Shown piece by piece: positions 374 through 22,911 of a stretch of 64,000 nucleotides of DNA. Below the pieces are notes generated by a model. The model made no database searches, was not told where the DNA came from, and worked only from the letters and a program-made list of their open reading frames with translations. Position numbers and translations under genes: made by a program. Positions within the stretch are counted from its first letter, which is position 1; each line of letters starts with the position of its first letter. Origin of the DNA: Candidatus Eremiobacteraceae bacterium (GTDB lineage Bacteria; Vulcanimicrobiota; Vulcanimicrobiia; Eremiobacterales; Eremiobacteraceae); contig DASTCX010000003.1 of assembly GCA_035710745.1 (NCBI GenBank), forward strand, positions 1 to 64,000. The letters are read 5' to 3'.

Positions 374-3022
374 TTAAGTCGAGGACGGCACGTTTGGGCG
401 AAACACCAACCGCCTAAGAACCGCGTCCATTGACTCGGCAGTGACGACCGCGAATAAGCATTTCCCGCTGCTTCCTGTTGCCCAGACGTTTCCAAGCCTG
501 GACTTTTCCAGCGTGTCCGTTGATTCCATGTCACTCCTGCGTTTATACTCAACGACTAAGATGCGCTCATCTTTTAGGCGGGCGACAAAATCAGGGAAGA
601 ACTTGTCCGTCGATGTTTGCAACCAAAATGAGGTTGAGGACCGCCTAGAAAGATTCCGAACCCAAGTATCGACCTCGGCCATTGAGTCAATGAGGCAGGC
701 GCAGTCGAATTCCTCACCGTTCGACCCTAGTTCACCAACCTTTGGATAAAAATGAGATTGAAAGACGTATCGACCTTCATAGAAACTTGTGGCCGGATAA
801 AAATCGACTTCCGGCCTATACTCAAATACCACCTTGCTGTCGACTGCAATGTTTTGGCTGTCTTCAATCAGGCGATCCCAACGGATCTTTCGGGCGTTGC
901 TCCTCAATCTATCAAGTACTCTAGCCACAGACGACCTGAGACGAAACCGATCAGTAATAAGTCGCTCTAGCGAAACGCCTTGACGTACGAGAGTTAGGTT
1001 CAGGGTGGAATTGATAAGCGATACCGCTTGTTCGCGGGGCAAGTCGGGATGAGAAATTGAGCGATCAATCCAGAGTGCCAGATCGCGAAGGCTCCAGTTG
1101 GGGACTCCCTCGAGCAACGATTGTTGGTAAGCGAGGTCATCCGACAAGGATCTAATGCTTATGCGACCTTCGTTCCCAACATCTATAGTACCGGTCCCCC
1201 CCTGCGCACCACTAATCGACAGCTCTTCCGAAGCCACGGCGACTAAGGTTTCATCGGAGATGTCGCCCCAAGCTGCCTGAAGTAAGCTATCATCGAGAAC
1301 GTGCCGACCACTCCCTAACTCAATTGTCAATTGCGGAATAGTGACTGGACGCCTTGGCTCCACTGAGGTCGTCGGCGTGCCGGTAGCCCTAAGCCTGGCG
1401 CAAAGCTCATCGACTAGCTCTCGATCTTGAGGTGACGTAAACGAATTCCTAATATGTTCTTGTTCCCATTCCGTTGGCGTGGTTAGCAAAGTAAGCGTCA
1501 AGTCAGCGGGGTTAAAATTGATGCTACTCCTAACGGAGGCAGGTAAGGACGAAAAGATAGGCGGTTGCGAAACCTGGGTAGTTCGGTCCCGTATCTGCTC
1601 AGGGGTCAATTGCAATGGGCTTGTGACAAGTACTTGCTGCGCAAGGAATCTCTCGAATCCATTTTCTACAAGGGCATCGGCTAAAGTGTTTGCCGTGTTT
1701 GAGAAAGAATCCGACGTTGCTATAGCGTAAGCTCTACACAGCTCAGGGTGAGCCTGCGGTCGCCCATAGGGCATTCTAAGCACCCTGCCAAGTATTTGTT
1801 CCACAGCCGTTGCTGAATTCAAATTCGCAACGGTGAATAGCACGTACGCGAACGAGCAGTCCCAACCTTCGGCGAGCGCTTGAACCGTCACGATGTAGCG
1901 AATGTGGCAATCAGACGAGAACAAGTCGATACCCGTGACTTCATGCACGCTTGATGTTTGCTCCGCGACTTGTTCCCGAGGTACAGCACAATCAGATACT
2001 AAACTGTTGATTATCCTTTCTACGGTGACGTTCGTGCCTGACTGAGATCGAGGCTGTGCTTGAATCAAGAGTATTGGTCTTACATACGAAGAACGGTCTT
2101 GTGACGCAGAGATGCTCTCAAGACGTGAGCGCAGCTGAACGGCTTGCGCAAGACCTGCCTCCCATGATGCCTCCGTGTGAAGCTGAATAGGAAGCTTGAT
2201 CATTCCCTCAGATTTCAATTCGAGAGCTGATACGTGCCACAAGATGTTGCTTGCGAACGAGTTCCGCGTGGGATCGTGAGTGGTTTGAGGCGTCGCTGTG
2301 AATTCAACTATACTTATGGGTCTCAACCGGGCTATTGTCTCGAACGACAAGGGCGTTCGGGCATTGTGAGCTTCGTCGACAATCACTAGCGGGCGATGAA
2401 GGCGCAGCACATTGCAGAGAGATGCGACCGGCGTTTGCTCAGATGTAAGCTCAAGCGCTTCTATGAGCTCAGGTCGTAGCCTTTGGAAGTGTTCGAGCAA
2501 AGCGCCATTCTCTTGATACACGCGTCGACCGTCAGTATCGGTGACGCGGAGACTCGCGAGTGTCGCTACGACCACCGTAAGTCTGTTCTCTAGGATCGCT
2601 CTTTCTACGGCTAGCGCCTCTCTGATGTCCAAAACCGTAACTCGGCTCGGATACGCCCTCTCCAGGACAACCCGGTAGGGGTGGGTGGGATTCCGGAGGG
2701 AACTCAAAGTCTGTGTGCGGATCGCATTCGAGGGGACAAGCCAAACTACGACGCAAGTTCCCGCGCCGAGTACCTCAGTGCCGACGGTGACGACCGTATT
2801 GGCGGCCATAAAAGTCTTGCCGCCTCCGGTGGGCACGCGAAGACATACATAAGGGATCTCTGGGAGATCGGGTATCGCAATAAATGGAACGGCGGCTCCC
2901 GTTAGAGCTTCGGTTGTTTCACTGAACGCTCTCGCGGCGTCACCGGACTGCACGAACGACGTGAAGTACCGTGTCACCGCGCTCATCGCCTCTTGCTGGT
3001 ATTGTTTCAGCTCAAACATCAC
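374..3022 (-). CDS. Type III restriction enzyme, Res subunit (helicase-nuclease)
   Basis: This is the ATP-dependent translocating and cleaving subunit of a type III restriction-modification system, 882 aa, near the usual Res length. Visible motifs in order are Walker A PTGGGKT (res. 64-70), the Walker B box VDEAH (about 215-219), the SF2 motif EFTATP, and motif VI VEQILGRVLRMP. Near the C terminus is a PD-(D/E)xK nuclease signature with P810-D811 and E825-Y-K827 (FFPDF...VVEYK). It follows mod by 3 nt, so the two are one operon. All catalytic motifs look intact, so the system is probably active, despite the IS insertion about 240 bp beyond its stop. Confidence 0.95.
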   Translation of the reverse strand: MMFELKQYQQEAMSAVTRYFTSFVQSGDAARAFSETTEALTGAAVPFIAIPDLPEIPYVCLRVPTGGGKTFMAANTVVTVGTEVLGAGTCVVVWLVPSNAIRTQTLSSLRNPTHPYRVVLERAYPSRVTVLDIREALAVERAILENRLTVVVATLASLRVTDTDGRRVYQENGALLEHFQRLRPELIEALELTSEQTPVASLCNVLRLHRPLVIVDEAHNARTPLSFETIARLRPISIVEFTATPQTTHDPTRNSFASNILWHVSALELKSEGMIKLPIQLHTEASWEAGLAQAVQLRSRLESISASQDRSSYVRPILLIQAQPRSQSGTNVTVERIINSLVSDCAVPREQVAEQTSSVHEVTGIDLFSSDCHIRYIVTVQALAEGWDCSFAYVLFTVANLNSATAVEQILGRVLRMPYGRPQAHPELCRAYAIATSDSFSNTANTLADALVENGFERFLAQQVLVTSPLQLTPEQIRDRTTQVSQPPIFSSLPASVRSSINFNPADLTLTLLTTPTEWEQEHIRNSFTSPQDRELVDELCARLRATGTPTTSVEPRRPVTIPQLTIELGSGRHVLDDSLLQAAWGDISDETLVAVASEELSISGAQGGTGTIDVGNEGRISIRSLSDDLAYQQSLLEGVPNWSLRDLALWIDRSISHPDLPREQAVSLINSTLNLTLVRQGVSLERLITDRFRLRSSVARVLDRLRSNARKIRWDRLIEDSQNIAVDSKVVFEYRPEVDFYPATSFYEGRYVFQSHFYPKVGELGSNGEEFDCACLIDSMAEVDTWVRNLSRRSSTSFWLQTSTDKFFPDFVARLKDERILVVEYKRRSDMESTDTLEKSRLGNVWATGSSGKCLFAVVTAESMDAVLRRLVFRPNVPSST

Positions 3023-3025
3023 AGA

Positions 3026-4759
3026 TCAGTGATTGACCAAAAAGTCATATGGCAACTGTCGAAAGGTTATACCCCTACTCTTGAGGAGTCGTCCATCAAG
3101 ATGACACGCCTCAGCGTAGACGACGTGCGAGGTCGCTTCTTCTCTCAGCATGCCGAGTGAATCTAGATCAAGAACGAGTCGCTCTCCCTTGGAGCCAGGC
3201 CTAGGACTGCAGAGATAGTACGCCACGCCGTCTGCGGTGTCTAAGTACTCATCCGAGGAAATCGGACGCGTTATCGACCTTCTCGTTTCGAGATAATACA
3301 CGTACTGCGCTAACTGTTCCCGGGATACTTTCGAGTTGAGGTCTCCATCCTCGGTGAGGAGGCGCTCTCCCAAGGTTGCGCAATTAATAGACCCGCCCAA
3401 CCCTGGTACGTGCTGGCCGGATCGCGTGCTATAACCACTCATCACATTACGCAGCCGTGGTACCGTAACGTTCTCAAAAATGTGAGGTTCTAACTCAACG
3501 AGTACAAACCGGCGAGTTCCTCCGTCTTCACTGTTGAGCTTCAAAACAGCATGACCGGTCGTGCCACTTCCCGCGAAGGAGTCCAAAACGATAGCGGTTG
3601 GATCGGTCTTTGTAGCTGCGCGTACAAGGTAATGGATAAGGCTAACTGGCTTGGGATAGGGGAATGCTTGCCCCTGTTCTACCCCGAGTATTTCTGAAAG
3701 TTCGCGCGAAGCGTCTTCGTTCGTCCCAATGCCAAGTTTTGTCCCAAGCACGTCTAAGAGCTCCTCGCGAGCGACTTCGGAATCATCTACGTTGGCATCT
3801 TCGTCGAGCAACGTTCTTGGTCTCTTGAACTTCTCAGCCTGATTCCAGCGCAGCGCGTTAAACCCAAACTCATTGGAGAGCGTGACCTTCGTCCCTAGTG
3901 TAATCTCTTCGTCTAGTTTCTCTTGAGTCCAGACAAAATTTGCACGCGCCCTAAAGGCGCAGGTTACGATCCCGCCCTCGATGACGAGCTCGTCTAGAAA
4001 CTCAACTGCCGTGCCGCCTTCGCCGCGAATGCCGGGTGCATACTTACCGTCGCCTAAGCCACCGCGAGCGCTTCCATTCTTCCTCGCAACGATCAGGTTA
4101 GCCGGGAACGTCAACGTCTTGCTCGCGTTCGTACGCTTTACGAGCGGTTGAAGTTTGTCAGAATATGCCGGTTCCCCAAAAAGGCTCGTATCTTGAATCT
4201 CCTTCGCGTAGGCGAAAACGAAGTCTGTCATCTTGCGCATCGTGCCGGAAAGGTGACTTCCCTTTTTCTTACGCACCCAAGTTAGAATTCCGATCCGATT
4301 GCGCTCGAGAAAGATTTCGTCCATGAGGTTTGCAAGATGACCAGCCTCATTTTCGTCAATGGTTACGAAGATCACGCCGTCATCGCTCAAAAACTCACGA
4401 AGCAGCCGCAACCTCGGATACATCATGCAAAGCCACTTGTCGTGCCTTGTAAGATCTTCGCCGACCGGCCCGACCACCTGCCCCAACCAACGACGGATCT
4501 CAGGTGAGTTGACGGCATCATTGTATATCCACTTTTCGGTTCCAGTGTTATACGGCGGATCAATAAATATGCACTTTACGCGCTTCGCCAAATAGGGCAA
4601 TAAAGACCGCAGTGCGATGAGATTGTCCCCTCGTACGACAATGTTGCCTCCAACAGAGCTATTACCCGCCAACCCAGGCAACCAGTCGAGGAGCTGGAAC
4701 GGCACATCCTGGTCGTGATGGATGACCGCGTCTTTCCCAATCCAATCCAACGAAGGCAT
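3026..4759 (-). CDS. Type III restriction-modification methyltransferase, Mod subunit
   Basis: An N6-adenine DNA methyltransferase of the beta class, 577 aa, that supplies recognition and modification for the type III system. Motif IV DPPY is at res. 67-70 (IFIDPPYNTG) and motif I (DSFAGSGTTGHAVL) follows at about 393-406, the order expected for beta-class enzymes. The region between them (about 190-360) should be the target-recognition domain and shows no family signature. ATG at 4757-4759; stop 3 nt before res. The 281 bp upstream hold no convincing gene. Recognition sequence cannot be read from the sequence. Confidence 0.94.
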   Translation of the reverse strand: MPSLDWIGKDAVIHHDQDVPFQLLDWLPGLAGNSSVGGNIVVRGDNLIALRSLLPYLAKRVKCIFIDPPYNTGTEKWIYNDAVNSPEIRRWLGQVVGPVGEDLTRHDKWLCMMYPRLRLLREFLSDDGVIFVTIDENEAGHLANLMDEIFLERNRIGILTWVRKKKGSHLSGTMRKMTDFVFAYAKEIQDTSLFGEPAYSDKLQPLVKRTNASKTLTFPANLIVARKNGSARGGLGDGKYAPGIRGEGGTAVEFLDELVIEGGIVTCAFRARANFVWTQEKLDEEITLGTKVTLSNEFGFNALRWNQAEKFKRPRTLLDEDANVDDSEVAREELLDVLGTKLGIGTNEDASRELSEILGVEQGQAFPYPKPVSLIHYLVRAATKTDPTAIVLDSFAGSGTTGHAVLKLNSEDGGTRRFVLVELEPHIFENVTVPRLRNVMSGYSTRSGQHVPGLGGSINCATLGERLLTEDGDLNSKVSREQLAQYVYYLETRRSITRPISSDEYLDTADGVAYYLCSPRPGSKGERLVLDLDSLGMLREEATSHVVYAEACHLDGRLLKSRGITFRQLPYDFLVNH

Positions 4760-5040: not shown

Positions 5041-7269
5041 TTAACTGTTGGGTCTTGCGCCTTTCTTGGCGGTACCGGCCATATCGTGCGCAGCCCGTCG
5101 GGCATCCGGGATACCAGGCGATAAACGGCGTTGCGAAATTAGGTTTGCAAAGCGCTCCGCTGACTGTGTACTAACGCGCCTTAAATTCTGATCCTCATCG
5201 AGATTGATGTGGAATAACCCAAAGTCGCTGTTGTTGTCAAAGGGAAGACCCCATTCACGGTTTGACGTGATGCTCCAGCACAGGTAGGCGATGATCGGAG
5301 CACCGCGGCGCCAGGCGTGTTCGACCTGCTCGATGTGCGCGTTGAGATATTTGGCGCGCGAGAAGCCATCGGCTGACGTCACACAACCGTTCTCGATGAC
5401 CATGATCGGCTTGCCCGGGAACTGGTCTTCAGCTTCCCGGATAAGGCCGTCGAGCACGCCAGGCCAGACGGGCGCCATCGCGTAGTGACATTCAGCAGCG
5501 GCCGACAGTCGTTGCAGCTCGCCTGGCCAGATCGAAGAGATTCCCCAATAGTAGTCGAGGCCGACATAGTCGAGCGTGCCGACGCATTCGGACGGGCACA
5601 AGAACTTCGGTAGCTTTCCGGCCATTCCGAGGTTCCACCAATTTGTGCCTACGAGCGTTCCGAACATCCCAAGTGACTTGCGGAAATCGTCGAACGCGCC
5701 TAGAAGCGAGCGCGTCGCGTTCCACCTATGATCGCCGGTGAGCTCAACAAAGCGGACTTTAGCGTCGCCAGCGCCGAAGATTCCTCGCGCGATGACGCGA
5801 GCCAGGTCCGGCTCTAGCCCACGATAGCCGCCGGCGCCGTCGGGCATGCACAAGCCCTCGACTCCTGGCCGTATGCCGACGCGAAGCACGCCTCGCTTGC
5901 GGATCATGTCGATCGTTCGATCGAGGTCGGGCACGCCGGATGGGCCATGGCTAGGTGGCGCCTCGTCGCCCGGTCCGGTCAATGCGGCCATATCGGTCAT
6001 CCCGATCGTCTTGCGGTTCACGCCGCGCGGCAGCTCCGGATGCTTTCTCTTGTACTCCCTCAAAGTGCGGTCGACTGCGTTGAGCAGCGTCCGGCTCCCT
6101 AGCGCCATGACGATACCAATGGGCCAGCGTCGGCCGAAAACCGGCGTGAGCACGAGTCCGTCCGAGGCGTAGGGCTTCAGGAAGAGATCGAGATCGAAGA
6201 CGGCATCGAGCTTGCCCGCCCGTAGCGCCGCGACCGCCGATGCCGGATCATCGAAATACTCGACGTCCGCAGCGGTGAAGAGCCCCCCGCACGTCGAGGC
6301 GGTGACCGCCTCGTTGATGACGCCGACACGGGCCTTCCATGTCTGAAAATTCGCCGGCAGCGCAAGCGATGACGCGTGGAGCAGAACGGGACTCGCCATC
6401 GCGTACGGCTCCGAGAAGAGCACCTTGCTCATCCGCTCCTGCGTCATGGCCACCTGCGCGATGGAGATGTCGACCGAGCCCGTGTTGAGGATCTTGTGTT
6501 GCGACAATCGCACCGCTTGCTTTATCGCCTGCTCGGGCGATTTCAGATGCGTCGCGTTCCGATCGACCAGTCGCTGAAGCCAGCGTGGCAAACCCAGCAC
6601 GAGCGGATTTGATCCGACCTTCGCCCGCGGATGCAGCACCTGAATCGCCGCCCGAGCGCGCGCATGCGCGCGAAAGAGATTTGGGATCAGCTTTAACACG
6701 GCTTCCATTTGTTGCTCGCCGGTCGCATACGGCGGCAAGCCCGGCGGCACCGGATACGAGCGCATCCAAAAACCCTTGATGTAGCCGTAGACGAGTTGGT
6801 TCGGTTCGTTCAGCGTCACGTAGTAGTCGATGAGATCACCGAGCCGCCGCGCGACCTCCGACGCGTACTTCTCCATCCGCGCGGGAAAGCCCGCATCGAG
6901 CATGCCCGCGCCGTCGCCCGCCGCCTGCACCCAAAGCGGCCACGTGTTGTGATGAAGCGTGACGACCGTCCACATGTCAGCGTCGCGCATATACTGCAGC
7001 ACGTCGCGGTAGTGCGCGAATGCGGCGTCATCCCAAACGCCAGGTTCCGGCTGTAACCGCGCCCAGGAGAGCGATAGCCGAAACGCGCGGCAGCCTAAAC
7101 CTTTCGCGAGATCGACGTCCTCGCGATAGCGGTTCCAGAAATCCGTCGCCTTGCCGCGCGGCACGAGGCCTCGCACCCGTTCCCACACGTCGCGGATATC
7201 ATCCCGACCATCATACGCCTCGCACTGATGGTCGGCTGTGGCTACCCCGAAACGGAAATGCTCGCGCAT
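5041..7269 (-). CDS. GH1 glycosidase with inserted circularly permuted solute-binding domain
   Basis: 742 aa, no signal peptide, so probably cytoplasmic. Res. 1-225 are the first half of a GH1 (beta-glucosidase-like) barrel with acid/base Glu155 in VTLNEPN. Res. 525-715 are the second half with nucleophile Glu626 in IMVIENG. Between strands 5 and 6 sits a bacterial extracellular solute-binding family 3 (SBP_bac_3) domain in permuted order. The part that normally follows the first lobe comes first (about 262-409, GSVDISIAQVAMTQERM ... FSEPY ... AGKLDAVFD). A Pro/Gly-rich linker follows (about 419-447), then the normal N-terminal part (448-524, RKRGVLRVGIRPG ... GYRGLEPDLA). ATG at 7267-7269 is chosen because the GH1 fold starts there. 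A longer frame runs into the divergent SDR and through a repeat. Confidence 0.88.
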   Translation of the reverse strand: MREHFRFGVATADHQCEAYDGRDDIRDVWERVRGLVPRGKATDFWNRYREDVDLAKGLGCRAFRLSLSWARLQPEPGVWDDAAFAHYRDVLQYMRDADMWTVVTLHHNTWPLWVQAAGDGAGMLDAGFPARMEKYASEVARRLGDLIDYYVTLNEPNQLVYGYIKGFWMRSYPVPPGLPPYATGEQQMEAVLKLIPNLFRAHARARAAIQVLHPRAKVGSNPLVLGLPRWLQRLVDRNATHLKSPEQAIKQAVRLSQHKILNTGSVDISIAQVAMTQERMSKVLFSEPYAMASPVLLHASSLALPANFQTWKARVGVINEAVTASTCGGLFTAADVEYFDDPASAVAALRAGKLDAVFDLDLFLKPYASDGLVLTPVFGRRWPIGIVMALGSRTLLNAVDRTLREYKRKHPELPRGVNRKTIGMTDMAALTGPGDEAPPSHGPSGVPDLDRTIDMIRKRGVLRVGIRPGVEGLCMPDGAGGYRGLEPDLARVIARGIFGAGDAKVRFVELTGDHRWNATRSLLGAFDDFRKSLGMFGTLVGTNWWNLGMAGKLPKFLCPSECVGTLDYVGLDYYWGISSIWPGELQRLSAAAECHYAMAPVWPGVLDGLIREAEDQFPGKPIMVIENGCVTSADGFSRAKYLNAHIEQVEHAWRRGAPIIAYLCWSITSNREWGLPFDNNSDFGLFHINLDEDQNLRRVSTQSAERFANLISQRRLSPGIPDARRAAHDMAGTAKKGARPNS

Positions 7270-7353: not shown

Positions 7354-7398
7354 AACTTCGAACATGGTTGAGTGATAGAGCGGGCGAACGGCTTTGCC

Positions 7399-8130
7399 AT
7401 GAGATTCACGGGCAAGACGTGCATCGTCACGGGTGGCGGATCGGGGATCGGCCGCGCGACATGCCTTCAGATGGCCGCCGAGGGCGGCAAGGTCGTCGTT
7501 GCGGACCTCAAGCTCGACGCAGCTCAAGCAACTGTGGACGACATCACCAAGGCTGGCGGCACAGCGATGGCCGTCGCAGTCGACGTCGGCGACTCGGCGC
7601 AGGTCCAGCAGGTCATCGCCAAGGCCGTTGCCGCGTACAATCAGATCGACGTCATCGTCAACGACGCCGCCATGATGACGTTCACGCCAATCGTCGACAT
7701 CGCCGAAGCCGACTTCTTCCACGTGGTCACCACGAACCTCGGATCGGTGTTTTACTTCAGCAAGTACAGTGCGCCGCGTATGCCGGCCGGTTCCGTGATC
7801 GTCAACATCAGCTCCGTCCACGCGCATCAGACGACGCCGAACGTCGTCCCCTACGCGGCGAGCAAAGGCGCGATCGAGGCGTTCACGCGCGGTTTCAGCA
7901 TCGAGATGCTCTCAAAGGGTATCCGCGTCAACGCCATCGCACCGGGCGCGGTCGACACGCCGATGCTCTGGAACAACCCGAACGTGAAAAGCGGTGCCGA
8001 GAAGATCGAAGGCGCGATCGGTAAACCGGAAGACCTTGCCAATGCGATCTGCTTCATCGCTTCAGACGACGCGAAGTTCATCAACGGCACGACGCTCGTC
8101 GTCGATGGCGGCCGCCTCGACACGCTCTAG
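7399..8130 (+). CDS. Short-chain dehydrogenase/reductase (SDR)
   Basis: A classical SDR of 243 aa: NAD(P) motif TGGGSGIG near res. 11-18, catalytic Ser in NISSVH, and YAASK (Tyr-x3-Lys). The usual NAG motif reads NDAA. It is a soluble oxidoreductase of unknown substrate. I start at ATG 7399, directly before the Rossmann strand; an in-frame GTG at 7372 would add nine residues. It is divergent from the GH1 fusion gene and ends 20 bp from a convergent nucleotidyltransferase. Confidence 0.9.
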   Translation: MRFTGKTCIVTGGGSGIGRATCLQMAAEGGKVVVADLKLDAAQATVDDITKAGGTAMAVAVDVGDSAQVQQVIAKAVAAYNQIDVIVNDAAMMTFTPIVDIAEADFFHVVTTNLGSVFYFSKYSAPRMPAGSVIVNISSVHAHQTTPNVVPYAASKGAIEAFTRGFSIEMLSKGIRVNAIAPGAVDTPMLWNNPNVKSGAEKIEGAIGKPEDLANAICFIASDDAKFINGTTLVVDGGRLDTL

Positions 8131-20806: not shown

Positions 20807-20881
20807 TGGCACCCTCGGAGGGAATCGAACCCACACCCATCGCGTTCGTAGCGCGCCGCTCGTCCTTCGAGCTACGAGGGT
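20807..20881 (-). tRNA. tRNA-Arg (ACG)
   Basis: Acceptor ACCCTCG/CGAGGGT, discriminator G, encoded CCA. Anticodon loop CTACGAA gives ACG. D stem GCTC/GAGC and T loop TTCGATT are normal. One mismatch in the anticodon stem. Confidence 0.93.
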
Positions 20882-20890
20882 ACGCTTTAG

Positions 20891-20965
20891 TGGCGCCGGA
20901 ACCTGCGATCGAATCAGGCTCTCGCGGGTTTCAACCGCGCGCTCTACCACCTGAGCTATTCCGGC
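20891..20965 (-). tRNA. tRNA-Phe (GAA)
   Basis: Acceptor GCCGGAA/TTCCGGC, discriminator G, encoded CCA. Anticodon stem CGCGG/CCGCG with loop TTGAAAC gives GAA. The first 10 nt are also the last codons and TAG stop of the upstream protein gene. Confidence 0.94.
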
Positions 20966-21300
20966 AAAGGTCGAAGCACGTGCGTCTCGTTCGTGATGAC
21001 GGAGCCGCCAAGGTGCGGTGACGCAAACCAAGAGTAGATCTCCTTCGTTCGCGGATCTGCCTGGAACGCCGCGAGGCTGGCAGCCGAGTCGAAGATGAGC
21101 ATGCACTCGGTGTTGTTGGCACCGACATATCGTGGTGACAAGCCGCCCTCGTTCAGCGTCGACTGGAGCGGACGCGTCGCGTAGTTCACTAAGCCGCTGG
21201 CGACGATGCACAGCGCCTCGAAACATTCGGCGATCTTTTGCGGCGGCTGGTCGTAGAAGCGAATGACCAACCAATGCTCCGCGACCTTTGACTTTGACAC
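20956..21300 (-). CDS. Unknown 114-aa protein embedded in the tRNA array
   Basis: GTG start at 21298-21300 with AGGAG just upstream, placed 25 nt after the 3' end of tRNA-Glu. The protein is soluble. The stretch NTECMLIFDSAASLAAFQADPRTKEIYSWF suggests a small ferredoxin-like alpha/beta fold such as dimeric alpha-beta-barrel proteins, but I do not recognise a family. Its TAG stop falls inside tRNA-Phe (bases 8-10 of the tRNA), so mRNA and tRNA overlap by 10 nt. Processing of the tRNA would cut the last codons off the message. Confidence 0.75.
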   Translation of the reverse strand: MSKSKVAEHWLVIRFYDQPPQKIAECFEALCIVASGLVNYATRPLQSTLNEGGLSPRYVGANNTECMLIFDSAASLAAFQADPRTKEIYSWFASPHLGGSVITNETHVLRPLPE

Positions 21301-21325
21301 TTTCTCCTGTCCATGTATTGAGACT

Positions 21326-21397
21326 CAGTCCCGCGCGGTTCCGACCCGCGTTCCCCGCGTTGAAGGCGCAGGATCCTAGCCACTAGACGACGGGACC
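21326..21397 (-). tRNA. tRNA-Glu (TTC), unusual
   Basis: Acceptor GGTCCCG/CGGGACT, and the D region TCGTCTAGTGGCTAGGA is typical of tRNA-Glu. Anticodon loop CCTTCAA gives TTC but has C at position 33 in place of the near-universal U. T loop GTCGGAA is also atypical. No CCA encoded. Only 1 nt separates it from tRNA-Leu. Confidence 0.8.
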
Positions 21398-21398
21398 C

Positions 21399-21487
21399 TG
21401 GTGCCCGCGGAGGGATTTGAACCCCCACCTCGCTCGCGCGAGACTGCGTTCTGAGCGCAGCGTGGCTTCCGGTTACACCACGCGGGC
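21399..21487 (-). tRNA. tRNA-Leu (CAG)
   Basis: Class II tRNA with a long variable arm. Acceptor GCCCGCG/CGCGGGC, discriminator A, encoded CCA. Anticodon stem CTGCG/CGCAG, loop CTCAGAA. Confidence 0.94.
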
Positions 21488-21491
21488 GACT

Positions 21492-21568
21492 TGGTTGGAG
21501 AAGCGAGATTCGCACTCGCGGCCTCGTCGATCCGAACGACGCGCTCTGCTAAGCTGAGCTATTCCCCA
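21492..21568 (-). tRNA. tRNA-Pro (CGG)
   Basis: Acceptor TGGGGAA/TTCTCCA, discriminator A, encoded CCA. Anticodon stem CGTCG/CGACG with loop TTCGGAT. T arm GCGAG-TGCGAAT-CTCGC. Confidence 0.92.
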
Positions 21569-21571
21569 TCA

Positions 21572-21646
21572 TGGCGCTCCGGACGGGTGTCGATCCCGCG
21601 GCCTCCCGCTCGACAGGCGGGCGCTCCACCGTTGAGCTACCGAAGC
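21572..21646 (-). tRNA. tRNA-Asp (GTC)
   Basis: Acceptor GCTTCGG/CCGGAGC, discriminator G, encoded CCA. Anticodon stem CCCGC/GCGGG, loop CTGTCGA. T loop ATCGACA has A at position 54. Confidence 0.91.
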
Positions 21647-21663
21647 ACGTTTCTTTAGTTCTT

Positions 21664-21737
21664 TGGAGGTCAGGGCCGGACTCGAACCGGCGATCGGTGG
21701 GTTGCAGCCACTTGCCTTTCCTCTTGACTACCTGACC
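21664..21737 (-). tRNA. tRNA-Cys (GCA)
   Basis: Acceptor GGTCAGG/CCTGACC, discriminator U as expected for Cys, encoded CCA. Loop CTGCAAC; T arm GCCGG-TTCGAGT-CCGGC. Confidence 0.93.
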
Positions 21738-21758
21738 AATCGTTGTCGTCGTCGTCAT

Positions 21759-21846
21759 TGGCGGAGAGCGGAGGATTCGAACCCCGCGCCCTTGCGGGCG
21801 CCACGAGTTTTCGAGACTCGGTGCCGACCCGTCGGCGGCACTCTCC
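21759..21846 (-). tRNA. tRNA-Ser (CGA)
   Basis: Class II tRNA: acceptor GGAGAGT/GCTCTCC, discriminator G, encoded CCA, long variable arm GGCGCCCGCAAGGGCGC, anticodon stem CGAGT/ACTCG with loop CTCGAAA. Confidence 0.94.
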
Positions 21847-21851
21847 GAATC

Positions 21852-21875
21852 GCCGAGCTTCGTTCGGCCTACTAC
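21852..21875 (-). repeat. Family B hairpin repeat inside the tRNA array
   Basis: On the minus strand GTAGTAGGCCGAACGAAGC... matches the family B element at 49200 in both hairpin and leader. It lies between tRNA-Met and tRNA-Ser, showing that the array carries the repeat families of the surrounding chromosome. Confidence 0.7.
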
Positions 21876-21883
21876 ATCCATAT

Positions 21884-21953
21884 TGGTAGCGGACCTCGGA
21901 ACCGCCCCGAGCCATCCGGCTTATGAGACCGGCGTCGTATCATCTCGTCCGCC
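21884..21953 (-). tRNA. tRNA-Met-like (CAT), truncated D arm
   Basis: Acceptor GGCGGAC/GTCCGCT with G1-U72, discriminator A, encoded CCA. Anticodon stem CCGGT/GCCGG with loop CTCATAA gives CAT. Only 14 nt separate the acceptor and anticodon stem, so the D arm is very short. The T stem CTCGG/CCGAG encloses a non-consensus loop GGCGGTT. Methionine versus tRNA-Ile2 (lysidine-modified CAT) cannot be decided. Confidence 0.65.
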
Positions 21954-22065
21954 TCAATGGCCCATCGTGAACCCCCGGGCCTCCGATTTTCGCCGGCGCT
22001 TCCCGCAAAGACGCCGGGCGGGTTCGTGTCGGTTGCGCGACCTTCGCAGTCGCGCTGAGCAATGT
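21954..22065. other. Unassigned structured spacer in the tRNA array
   Basis: The widest tRNA-free spacer within the core of the array. The minus strand folds as three hairpins: GCGCGAC-TGCGAAG-GTCGCGC, CCGGCG...CGCCGG (13-nt loop) and GGCCC...GGGCC (13-nt loop). It contains TCTTTGCG, but I could not build a cloverleaf (for example tRNA-Gln) from it. Confidence 0.4.
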
Positions 22066-22136
22066 TGGCAGGCCGTGAGGGATTCGAACCCTCGTGCGCG
22101 AGTTTTGGAGGCTCGCCTGATCCCCGAGCCCGACCT
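22066..22136 (-). tRNA. tRNA-Trp (CCA)
   Basis: Acceptor AGGTCGG/ACGGCCT, discriminator G, encoded CCA tail. Anticodon loop CTCCAAA closed by CGAG/CTCG plus a C-A mismatch. T arm GAGGG-TTCGAAT-CCCTC. Confidence 0.88.
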
Positions 22137-22141
22137 ACGTT

Positions 22142-22216
22142 TGGAGCGATCGGCGGGATTCGAACCCGCACTGCCGCGTTGGTAGCGCGGCGGTCTTCCG
22201 CACGACGTCCGATCGC
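22142..22216 (-). tRNA. tRNA-Gly (ACC)
   Basis: Acceptor GCGATCG/CGATCGC, discriminator U, encoded CCA. Anticodon stem CCGCG/CGCGG with loop CTACCAA gives ACC. Bacteria normally use GCC, so A34 in a glycine tRNA is exceptional. Confidence 0.9.
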
Positions 22217-22221
22217 GTCAG

Positions 22222-22296
22222 CTGCCCCGGAGCGATTCGAACGCTCATCGTCGCGCTTAACAAGCGCTCGCATTGCCGCGATTATGCTACAGGGCA
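22222..22296 (-). tRNA. tRNA-Asn (GTT)
   Basis: Acceptor TGCCCTG/CGGGGCA, discriminator G, no CCA encoded. Anticodon loop TTGTTAA between GCGC/GCGC. T arm GAGCG-TTCGAAT-CGCTC. Confidence 0.91.
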
Positions 22297-22300
22297 TCAC

Positions 22301-22374
22301 TGGTGGAGGTGCAGGGAGTCGAACCCTGATCAGCTGTTTGCAAGACAGCCATCCTACCGTTGAACGAAACCCCC
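22301..22374 (-). tRNA. tRNA-Ala (TGC)
   Basis: Acceptor GGGGGTT/CACCTCC contains the G3-U70 pair that specifies alanine; discriminator A, encoded CCA. Anticodon stem GCTGT/ACAGC, loop CTTGCAA. Confidence 0.94.
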
Positions 22375-22386
22375 GTGTACCAGAGT

Positions 22387-22463
22387 TGGGGCGAGCATCC
22401 GGTATCGAACCGGAACCTGCGCGGTCACATCGCGTCGTGCAGCGCCACTACACCATGCCCGCC
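22387..22463 (-). tRNA. tRNA-His (GTG)
   Basis: Acceptor GCGGGCA/TGCTCGC with an extra 5' G opposite discriminator C73, the histidine identity element, and encoded CCA. Anticodon loop ATGTGAC. Confidence 0.92.
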
Positions 22464-22495
22464 ACGTCGTCGTCGATCGTCGTAGTCGTCGTCTT

Positions 22496-22570
22496 TGGAG
22501 CCGCCACCTCGACTTGCACGAGGCTGTCCGCATTACGAGTGCGGCGCGTCGCTCTCTACGCTTTGGCGAC
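22496..22570 (-). tRNA. tRNA-Thr (CGT)
   Basis: Acceptor GTCGCCA/TGGCGGC, discriminator U, encoded CCA. Anticodon stem CCGCA/TGCGG with loop CTCGTAA. T arm CCTCG-TGCAAGT-CGAGG. Preceded by a TCGTCG-rich spacer. Confidence 0.91.
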
Positions 22571-22575
22571 CGATC

Positions 22576-22647
22576 TACCCGAGGAGGGATTCGAACCCCC
22601 ACGCCGCTGTGTGTAAGACAGTTGCACGACCGTCGTGCTGCTCGGGT
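22576..22647 (-). tRNA. tRNA-Val (TAC)
   Basis: Acceptor ACCCGAG/CTCGGGT, discriminator A, no CCA encoded. Anticodon loop CTTACAC between CTGT/ACAG. T loop TTCGAAT. Confidence 0.92.
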
Positions 22648-22650
22648 CCA

Positions 22651-22733
22651 TGGGTGGGGCAGGATTCGAACCTGCGCGGCGCATCGCGCAACGGGGTTAC
22701 GGCCCGCCACCATCACCTCTCGGTCACCCACCC
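22651..22733 (-). tRNA. tRNA-Tyr (GTA), C33 variant
   Basis: Class II tRNA with variable arm TGCGCGATGCGCC. Acceptor GGGTGGG/CCCACCC, discriminator A, no CCA. Anticodon stem GCGGG/CCCGT with loop CCGTAAC gives GTA but has C at position 33. Confidence 0.87.
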
Positions 22734-22759
22734 ATCGTCGTCGTGCGTCGTCATCCTTT

Positions 22760-22830
22760 CGGGATCGTCGGAATCGAACCGACCGCCTTCGCCATATCAG
22801 AGCGACGCTCTGCCTTCTGAGCTAGATCCC
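22760..22830 (-). tRNA. tRNA-Ile (GAT)
   Basis: Acceptor GGGATCT/CGATCCC, discriminator G, no CCA. D arm GCTCAGAAGGCAGAGC. Anticodon stem TCGCT/GGCGA with loop CTGATAT. Confidence 0.93.
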
Positions 22831-22837
22831 AACATCG

Positions 22838-22911
22838 TGCCCTCGCCAGGAATCGAACCTGGAACCATCGGCTTAAGAGGCCGTTGCTCTACCTTGTTGA
22901 GCCACGAAGGC
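22838..22911 (-). tRNA. tRNA-Lys (CTT), first tRNA of the array
   Basis: Acceptor GCCTTCG/CGAGGGC, discriminator A, no CCA. Anticodon loop CTCTTAA between CGGC/GCCG. It is the promoter-proximal tRNA, 15 nt below the large hairpin. Confidence 0.93.

Follow-up and report, generated by a model that had tools for sequence, protein, structure and literature searches.

A solute-binding domain buried in the barrel of a glycosidase could serve to switch the enzyme, to shape it, or to help it recognize its substrate. This question is raised by a gene in the window, that is, the whole stretch of 64,000 nucleotides analysed here. A first-pass annotation had read the gene as a GH1 glycosidase, whose two catalytic glutamates are separated by a circularly permuted SBP_bac_3 domain of about 260 residues, and had proposed that the enzyme is either naturally ligand-gated or has its product sensed in place.

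The gene, its GH1 active site and its neighbours

The gene and the parts that concern its catalytic domain are as follows:

5041..7269, minus strand: complete gene for the 742-aa GH1 glycosidase that carries the permuted SBP insert (P0001; translation, orthologues sharing the start region)
6535..7269, minus strand: N-terminal half of the GH1 domain, residues 1-245, comprising strands 1-5 of the barrel and acid/base Glu155 (Pfam GH1; AlphaFold2)
6805..6807, minus strand: catalytic acid/base Glu155 in VTLNEPN (family alignment and residue table)
5128..5709, minus strand: GH1 C-terminal half, residues ~521-714, with nucleophile Glu626 (Pfam GH1 model 339-451; AlphaFold2)
5392..5394, minus strand: catalytic nucleophile Glu626 in IMVIENG (invariant in the family; alignment and residue table)

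The Pfam GH1 model (PF00232) matches both barrel halves with 144.6 bits against a cut-off of 22.6, the match being split into residues 2-221 (model 6-219) and a C-terminal piece. Between the two pieces lies an SBP_bac_3 match of 40.1 bits (cut-off 26.4), and the protein is the sole GH1 as well as the sole SBP_bac_3 match in the genome of the window. Glu155 and Glu626 are both present as first annotated, and so are all other active-site residues checked (Q15, H107, N154, E155, E626, W665, E672, W673), including E672, the position that touches the sugar in GH1 enzymes active on unphosphorylated glycosides. Glu155 is invariant in the 45-row family alignment and replaced by Ala in one MAG copy (L115) in the residue table; apart from this exception, the catalytic set is invariant across the family. 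As judged from this conserved active site, an inactive GH1 was ruled out and the protein is predicted to be a GH1-type β-glycosidase. The chain opens at barrel strand 1 and no export signal is visible by eye at its N-terminus, from which we infer that the enzyme is probably cytoplasmic. No ABC transporter partner was found among the neighbouring genes listed.

On the opposite strand, the gene is flanked by one annotated neighbour:

7372..8130, plus strand: divergently transcribed short-chain dehydrogenase (Pfam; neighbourhood clusters)

Homologues of this dehydrogenase also flank the glycosidase gene in several other Eremiobacterota, and genes for GMC oxidoreductases and/or α/β-hydrolases occur in its vicinity among cyanobacteria, Chloroflexota and part of the Eremiobacterota. 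Recurrent cyanobacterial neighbours further comprise P450, patatin, RoxA-like cytochrome c, metallo-β-lactamase-fold, 3β-HSD-like and acetoacetate-decarboxylase-like genes. This gene set hints, albeit weakly, that the substrate is a lipophilic alcohol in glycosylated form. In Chloroflexota, fused GMC-oxidoreductase proteins of ~970-980 aa are encoded upstream of the glycosidase (L099:4167-7118 and L101:3021-5920), which are related to the separate GMC and hydrolase genes beside the cyanobacterial glycosidase. Elsewhere in the window, a Type III restriction-modification-like pair (ResIII helicase and N6/N4 methylase; 374-4759, minus strand) lies directly downstream of the glycosidase gene, and 16 tRNA genes of differing specificities are packed within 2.1 kb (20807-22911, minus strand). 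One of the latter is a borderline tRNA-Sec according to Rfam (48.1 bits, threshold 47) and is called Ser-CGA by ARAGORN.

A circularly permuted solute-binding domain in the barrel

The insert of ~260 residues begins with the native second part of the SBP domain, which is followed by the linker and then by the native first part:

6034..6501, minus strand: native second part of the SBP domain, residues ~257-412, comprising the lobe 1 end, hinge, lobe 2 and return to lobe 1 (Pfam; order-restored profiles)
6127..6393, minus strand: SBP lobe 2, residues ~293-381, precisely missing in several related lineages (alignments, tree)
5929..6033, minus strand: linker rich in Pro/Gly that connects the native C- and N-termini, residues ~413-447 (pLDDT <50 at 427-443; length varies among relatives)
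5722..5928, minus strand: native first part of the SBP domain, residues ~448-516 (order-restored profile matches)

As found, the insert scored 42.6 bits with SBP_bac_3 and covered model positions 54-118 only, whereas restoration of the native order increased the score to 53.1 bits and extended the match to positions 1-118 in one stretch. Likewise, a 39-insert profile in the permuted order gave two swapped-order matches to native SBPs (E = 1.5e-35 and 3.2e-16). Swapping the parts, a check proposed in the first-pass annotation, turned these into one collinear match of 238 columns (E = 3.1e-50), and the same pattern was obtained with every native SBP tested. The breakpoints for the swap were our own choice, whereas the two inverted matches obtained before swapping are unaffected by it. 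Both parts abut at residues 135/136 of a native SBP (L142_6), showing that no residue is missing from the insert. A native-order SBP was ruled out by the SBP_bac_3 and 39-insert profile tests, the chain order of the insert differing from that of native SBP_bac_3 domains. On the strength of these alignments, the domain is a real, natural circular permutation, and the initial reading of a permuted insert separating the catalytic Glu pair holds. Its limits, initially given as residues 262-524, are better drawn at ~257-516. The permutation break, initially put where the first lobe would run into the (T/S)G-x-VDI strand, is better placed after strand 2 (VRFVEL), ahead of the helix preceding GSVDI.

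Structure prediction, likewise proposed at first pass, modelled the insert as a closed-like, two-lobed SBP fold. The AlphaFold2 model of the whole 742-aa protein, computed with 45 family members, reached a pLDDT of 87.9 and a pTM of 0.89, and the insert alone a pLDDT of 87.9 and a pTM of 0.83. Chain ends aside, only residues 427-443 fall below a pLDDT of 50, and this sole long disordered stretch agrees with the linker first placed at 419-447. The insertion site is the loop between barrel strands 5 (residues 217-221) and 6, on the catalytic face of the barrel. Foldseek searches with the insert alone retrieved amino-acid-binding proteins with BvgS as the top match. The insert superimposed on ancestral (closed) and Arg-bound structures at 2.0-2.4 Å over ~150 columns, as compared to 5.8 Å for apo Thermotoga maritima ArgBP. 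Since Foldseek aligns in sequence order, each alignment could match only one part of the permuted domain. With the whole model, only GH1 structures were among the best 50 matches listed, which is uninformative on the insert. Both models, the Foldseek matches and the restored-order profile match agree on a two-lobed SBP fold, and the confidently modelled insert is predicted to resemble closed, liganded amino-acid-binding proteins.

Distribution of the family, ligand pocket and loss of lobe 2

Strong orthologues (E below 1e-100) are present in 29 of 61 genomes sampled from the window's class (Eremiobacterota/Vulcanimicrobiota), or about half by our own tally. A genome-wide scan detected the same architecture in Eremiobacterota (Vulcanimicrobiota), Cyanobacteria, Chloroflexota, Verrucomicrobiota and one Methanosarcinales MAG. 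Beyond Eremiobacterota the family is sparse, with 2/292 cyanobacterial, 4/350 Chloroflexota (full-length copies) and 5/289 Verrucomicrobiota genomes. One entry titled Proteobacteria (L114, genome G066) belongs to the Chloroflexota sample and probably bears a wrong label. The full-length copy of the Methanosarcinales MAG (L108) resides on a contig that also carries genes for an RNA 3'-phosphate cyclase and a DUF5803 protein, and may reflect either transfer to archaea or misbinning. A plasmid-borne family was considered as well, and no plasmid match was found.

The search for other GH1 proteins with this insertion, which the first-pass annotation had advised, thus returned the architecture from dozens of genomes of several phyla. 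The suspicion of an artefact, be it an assembly chimera, a pseudogene or a chance resemblance, was prompted by the MAG origin alone. It conflicts with the recurrence of the same architecture, boundaries and frame in independent MAGs and in the cultured cyanobacteria Fischerella PCC 9431 and Chlorogloeopsis PCC 6912, as well as with the strong profile statistics (E = 3.1e-50). We therefore give it practically no credence and, an assembly chimera being ruled out by this recurrence, regard the protein as natural.

What might the domain bind? In mycobacterial GlnH, Ser164, Arg169 and Asp250 hold the amino-acid backbone, with Arg169 binding the ligand carboxylate and Asp250 the ligand amino group, while Arg147, Trp232 and Thr162 contact the side-chain carboxylate (PMC6069109). 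Three of these positions are mapped in the window copy as follows:

6433..6435, minus strand: Arg279, equivalent of GlnH Arg169 (ligand carboxylate), nearly invariant in the family (alignment to GlnH)
6190..6192, minus strand: Leu360 at the position of GlnH Asp250 (ligand amino group), Asp in nearly all full-length relatives (residue table)
5725..5727, minus strand: Arg515, equivalent of GlnH Arg147 (side-chain carboxylate contact), adjoining the permutation break (alignment to GlnH; residue table)

Across the family, the Arg147 and Arg169 equivalents are kept in nearly all insert-bearing members and the Asp250 equivalent in nearly all full-length members (residue table). Many cyanobacterial copies retain all Asp/Glu pocket positions, with Tyr replacing Trp232; in core Eremiobacterota, the Thr162 position is Gln and the Trp232 position is variable. 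In native order, the Fischerella insert is closest to the glutamate-bound Enterococcus faecium SBP 5eyf (E = 4e-42), and matches the Asp-specific GlnH with E = 8e-36. A sugar-binding SBP was ruled out, as the nearest solved relatives bind amino acids. The comparisons make an amino acid of the Asp/Glu type the more likely ligand, where one is bound, which speaks against the initial suggestion that the product is sensed in place.

The window copy itself keeps Arg279, but has Leu360 at the Asp250 position and Ala274 at the Ser/Thr164 position, and its sister L052 has likewise lost both pocket residues (Thr and Ala, respectively). Throughout the family, lobe 2 evolves at ~1.7-3 times the rate of the GH1 part. 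Divergence of lobe 2 in the window's small clade is 0.49-0.52, relative to a mean of 0.33 (range 0.23-0.48) in the GH1-distance bin 0.12-0.18 and of 0.47 (range 0.26-0.68) in the next bin. For their GH1 distance, these values reach or slightly exceed the upper limit, which is no more than suggestive of relaxed constraint in this clade.

In several Eremiobacterota, alignments show that lobe 2 is deleted cleanly between the two hinge strands, FSEPY... running directly into ...YAVAMALGSR; the orthologues with this deletion are L103, L104, L107, L112, L113, L115, L118 and L125. Lobe 1, Arg515 and the catalytic residues are kept in these copies, except for the Glu155 to Ala exchange in L115. On insert-free trees, four changes explain the losses most simply, and well-supported branches force at least two. 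There are also close GH1 proteins that have no insert, namely the Chloroflexota sisters L160 and L161 (~50% identity in the GH1 halves) and the more distant L137 (38%). All three share the signature motifs, have a loop of 55-82 residues at the site of the SBP domain and provide natural 'empty site' comparators. The Chloroflexota sequences group with L119, whose pocket is degenerate, inside the insert-bearing family. This placement favours insert loss as their origin, with weak deep branches (47-70% bootstrap); these sisters may instead represent the ancestral empty state. Deletion of lobe 2 with retention of the catalytic site, together with the insert-less GH1s, indicates that the sensor is dispensable for the enzyme.

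Possible ligand gating, its rivals and known systems

The insertion site, the permutation, the GH1 active site and, in most of the family, an amino-acid pocket can be considered established by alignment and modelling. From these we infer ligand identity and coupling. In the reading we prefer, the permuted SBP_bac_3 domain has taken the place of the GH1 loop that follows barrel strand 5 at the catalytic face, and its two lobes would in the family close on a small ligand, with aspartate, glutamate or a close analogue as our best guess. This ligand might report cytoplasmic nitrogen or carbon status. Lobe closure, transmitted via the loop after strand 5, would shift loops at the mouth of the active site and change its access or geometry, thereby tuning glycoside hydrolysis. 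In the window's lineage, the insert would probably bind another ligand or serve chiefly as a static building block of the rim around the active site. We consider this combined reading evenly poised between right and wrong. At the level of the family, natural gating is plausible because the ligand-holding Arg and Asp are conserved. For the window copy, simple amino-acid gating appears unlikely, being weakened by Leu360, Ala274, the divergence of lobe 2 and the existence of sister lineages that lack lobe 2 while retaining catalytic residues. Loss of the amino-group Asp and of Ser/Thr in this lineage makes it more probable that the insert binds something else there or has a structural role.

A broader version, which would make the family a widespread, natural amino-acid-gated cytoplasmic glycosidase with a permuted Asp/Glu venus-flytrap, some lineages having lost the switch by lobe-2 deletion, is one that we entertain tentatively; if true, the cytoplasmic amino-acid level would be tied directly to glycoside turnover in cyanobacteria and Eremiobacterota. 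Rather doubtful, in our estimate, is the opposite proposal that the insert has been exapted as a scaffold, which moulds the entrance for the aglycone or promotes assembly and undergoes no ligand-dependent switching, Arg515 and lobe 1 mattering by packing on the barrel and lobe 2 being decoration. The dispensability of lobe 2 keeps this rival strong: lobe 2 evolves fast and was cleanly lost at least two and most simply four times with lobe 1 and the GH1 residues staying, Arg515 is retained even in its absence, and the pocket Asp is gone in the window's lineage. However, the equivalents of Asp250 and Arg169 are retained between phyla whose inserts share 25-30% identity, a range in which most of the remaining lobe-2 positions are variable, and in copies without lobe 2 the Ser/Thr164 position drifts (Ala, Glu, Pro, Gly), as expected if binding had been selected earlier. 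The location of the insert on the catalytic face and the amino-acid type of the pocket would also suit a role in substrate recognition, in which the aglycone or some other portion of the substrate, e.g. of an amino-acid-bearing glycoside, would sit in the SBP pocket and be handed to the adjacent active site, the pocket not being an allosteric sensor in this case; possible substrate changes would then account for pocket drift and loss. We regard this as improbable, as the neighbours (GMC oxidoreductase, P450, SDR/3β-HSD-like, patatin, acetoacetate-decarboxylase-like and α/β hydrolase) suggest a lipophilic aglycone and not an amino acid.

GH1 and SBP_bac_3 are each textbook families. In the open-access literature searched, we found no description of a GH1 enzyme with an SBP insert, permuted or not, nor of a naturally permuted SBP or an SBP-class domain that is both permuted and enzyme-embedded. 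If ligand control is confirmed, the series of intact pocket, altered pocket, deleted lobe 2 and absent insert would make the rise and decay of domain-insertion allostery testable.

With GH1 β-glycosidases (T. maritima BglA, 4r27, 1vff) the window family shares the barrel, the acid/base Glu in (L/F)NEP, the nucleophile in ENG and the -1 subsite residues Gln, His, Trp, Glu and Trp. It differs in the strand-5 loop, replaced by the ~260-residue permuted SBP, and in its subfamily signature ADHQCEA...TSNREWG. With Asp/Glu-binding SBP_bac_3 proteins (5eyf, Peb1a 2v25, Mycobacterium tuberculosis GlnH 6h1u), the insert has in common the fold and the ligand-binding Arg, Asp, Ser/Thr and Arg147 positions. 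Unlike them, it is permuted with joined termini, has no export signal and is embedded in an enzyme, and the window copy is without the Asp and Ser/Thr. Natural fusions that use SBP_bac_3-type domains as sensory or regulatory parts include MltF, BvgS and ionotropic glutamate receptors, in which the SBP is in native order and arranged in tandem or hosts another domain. If ligand control is confirmed, the window family would be the natural counterpart of the allosteric switches that engineers select from libraries. The first-pass annotation had stated that engineered switches use exactly such permuted insertions, which does not describe the precedent considered here, a xylanase inserted in a xylose-binding protein and stimulated by ligand-induced closure (PMC4536891). 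Both systems unite a glycosidase and a venus-flytrap domain by insertion; however, the engineered switch nests the enzyme in an unpermuted SBP, whereas the natural family carries the SBP inside the enzyme.
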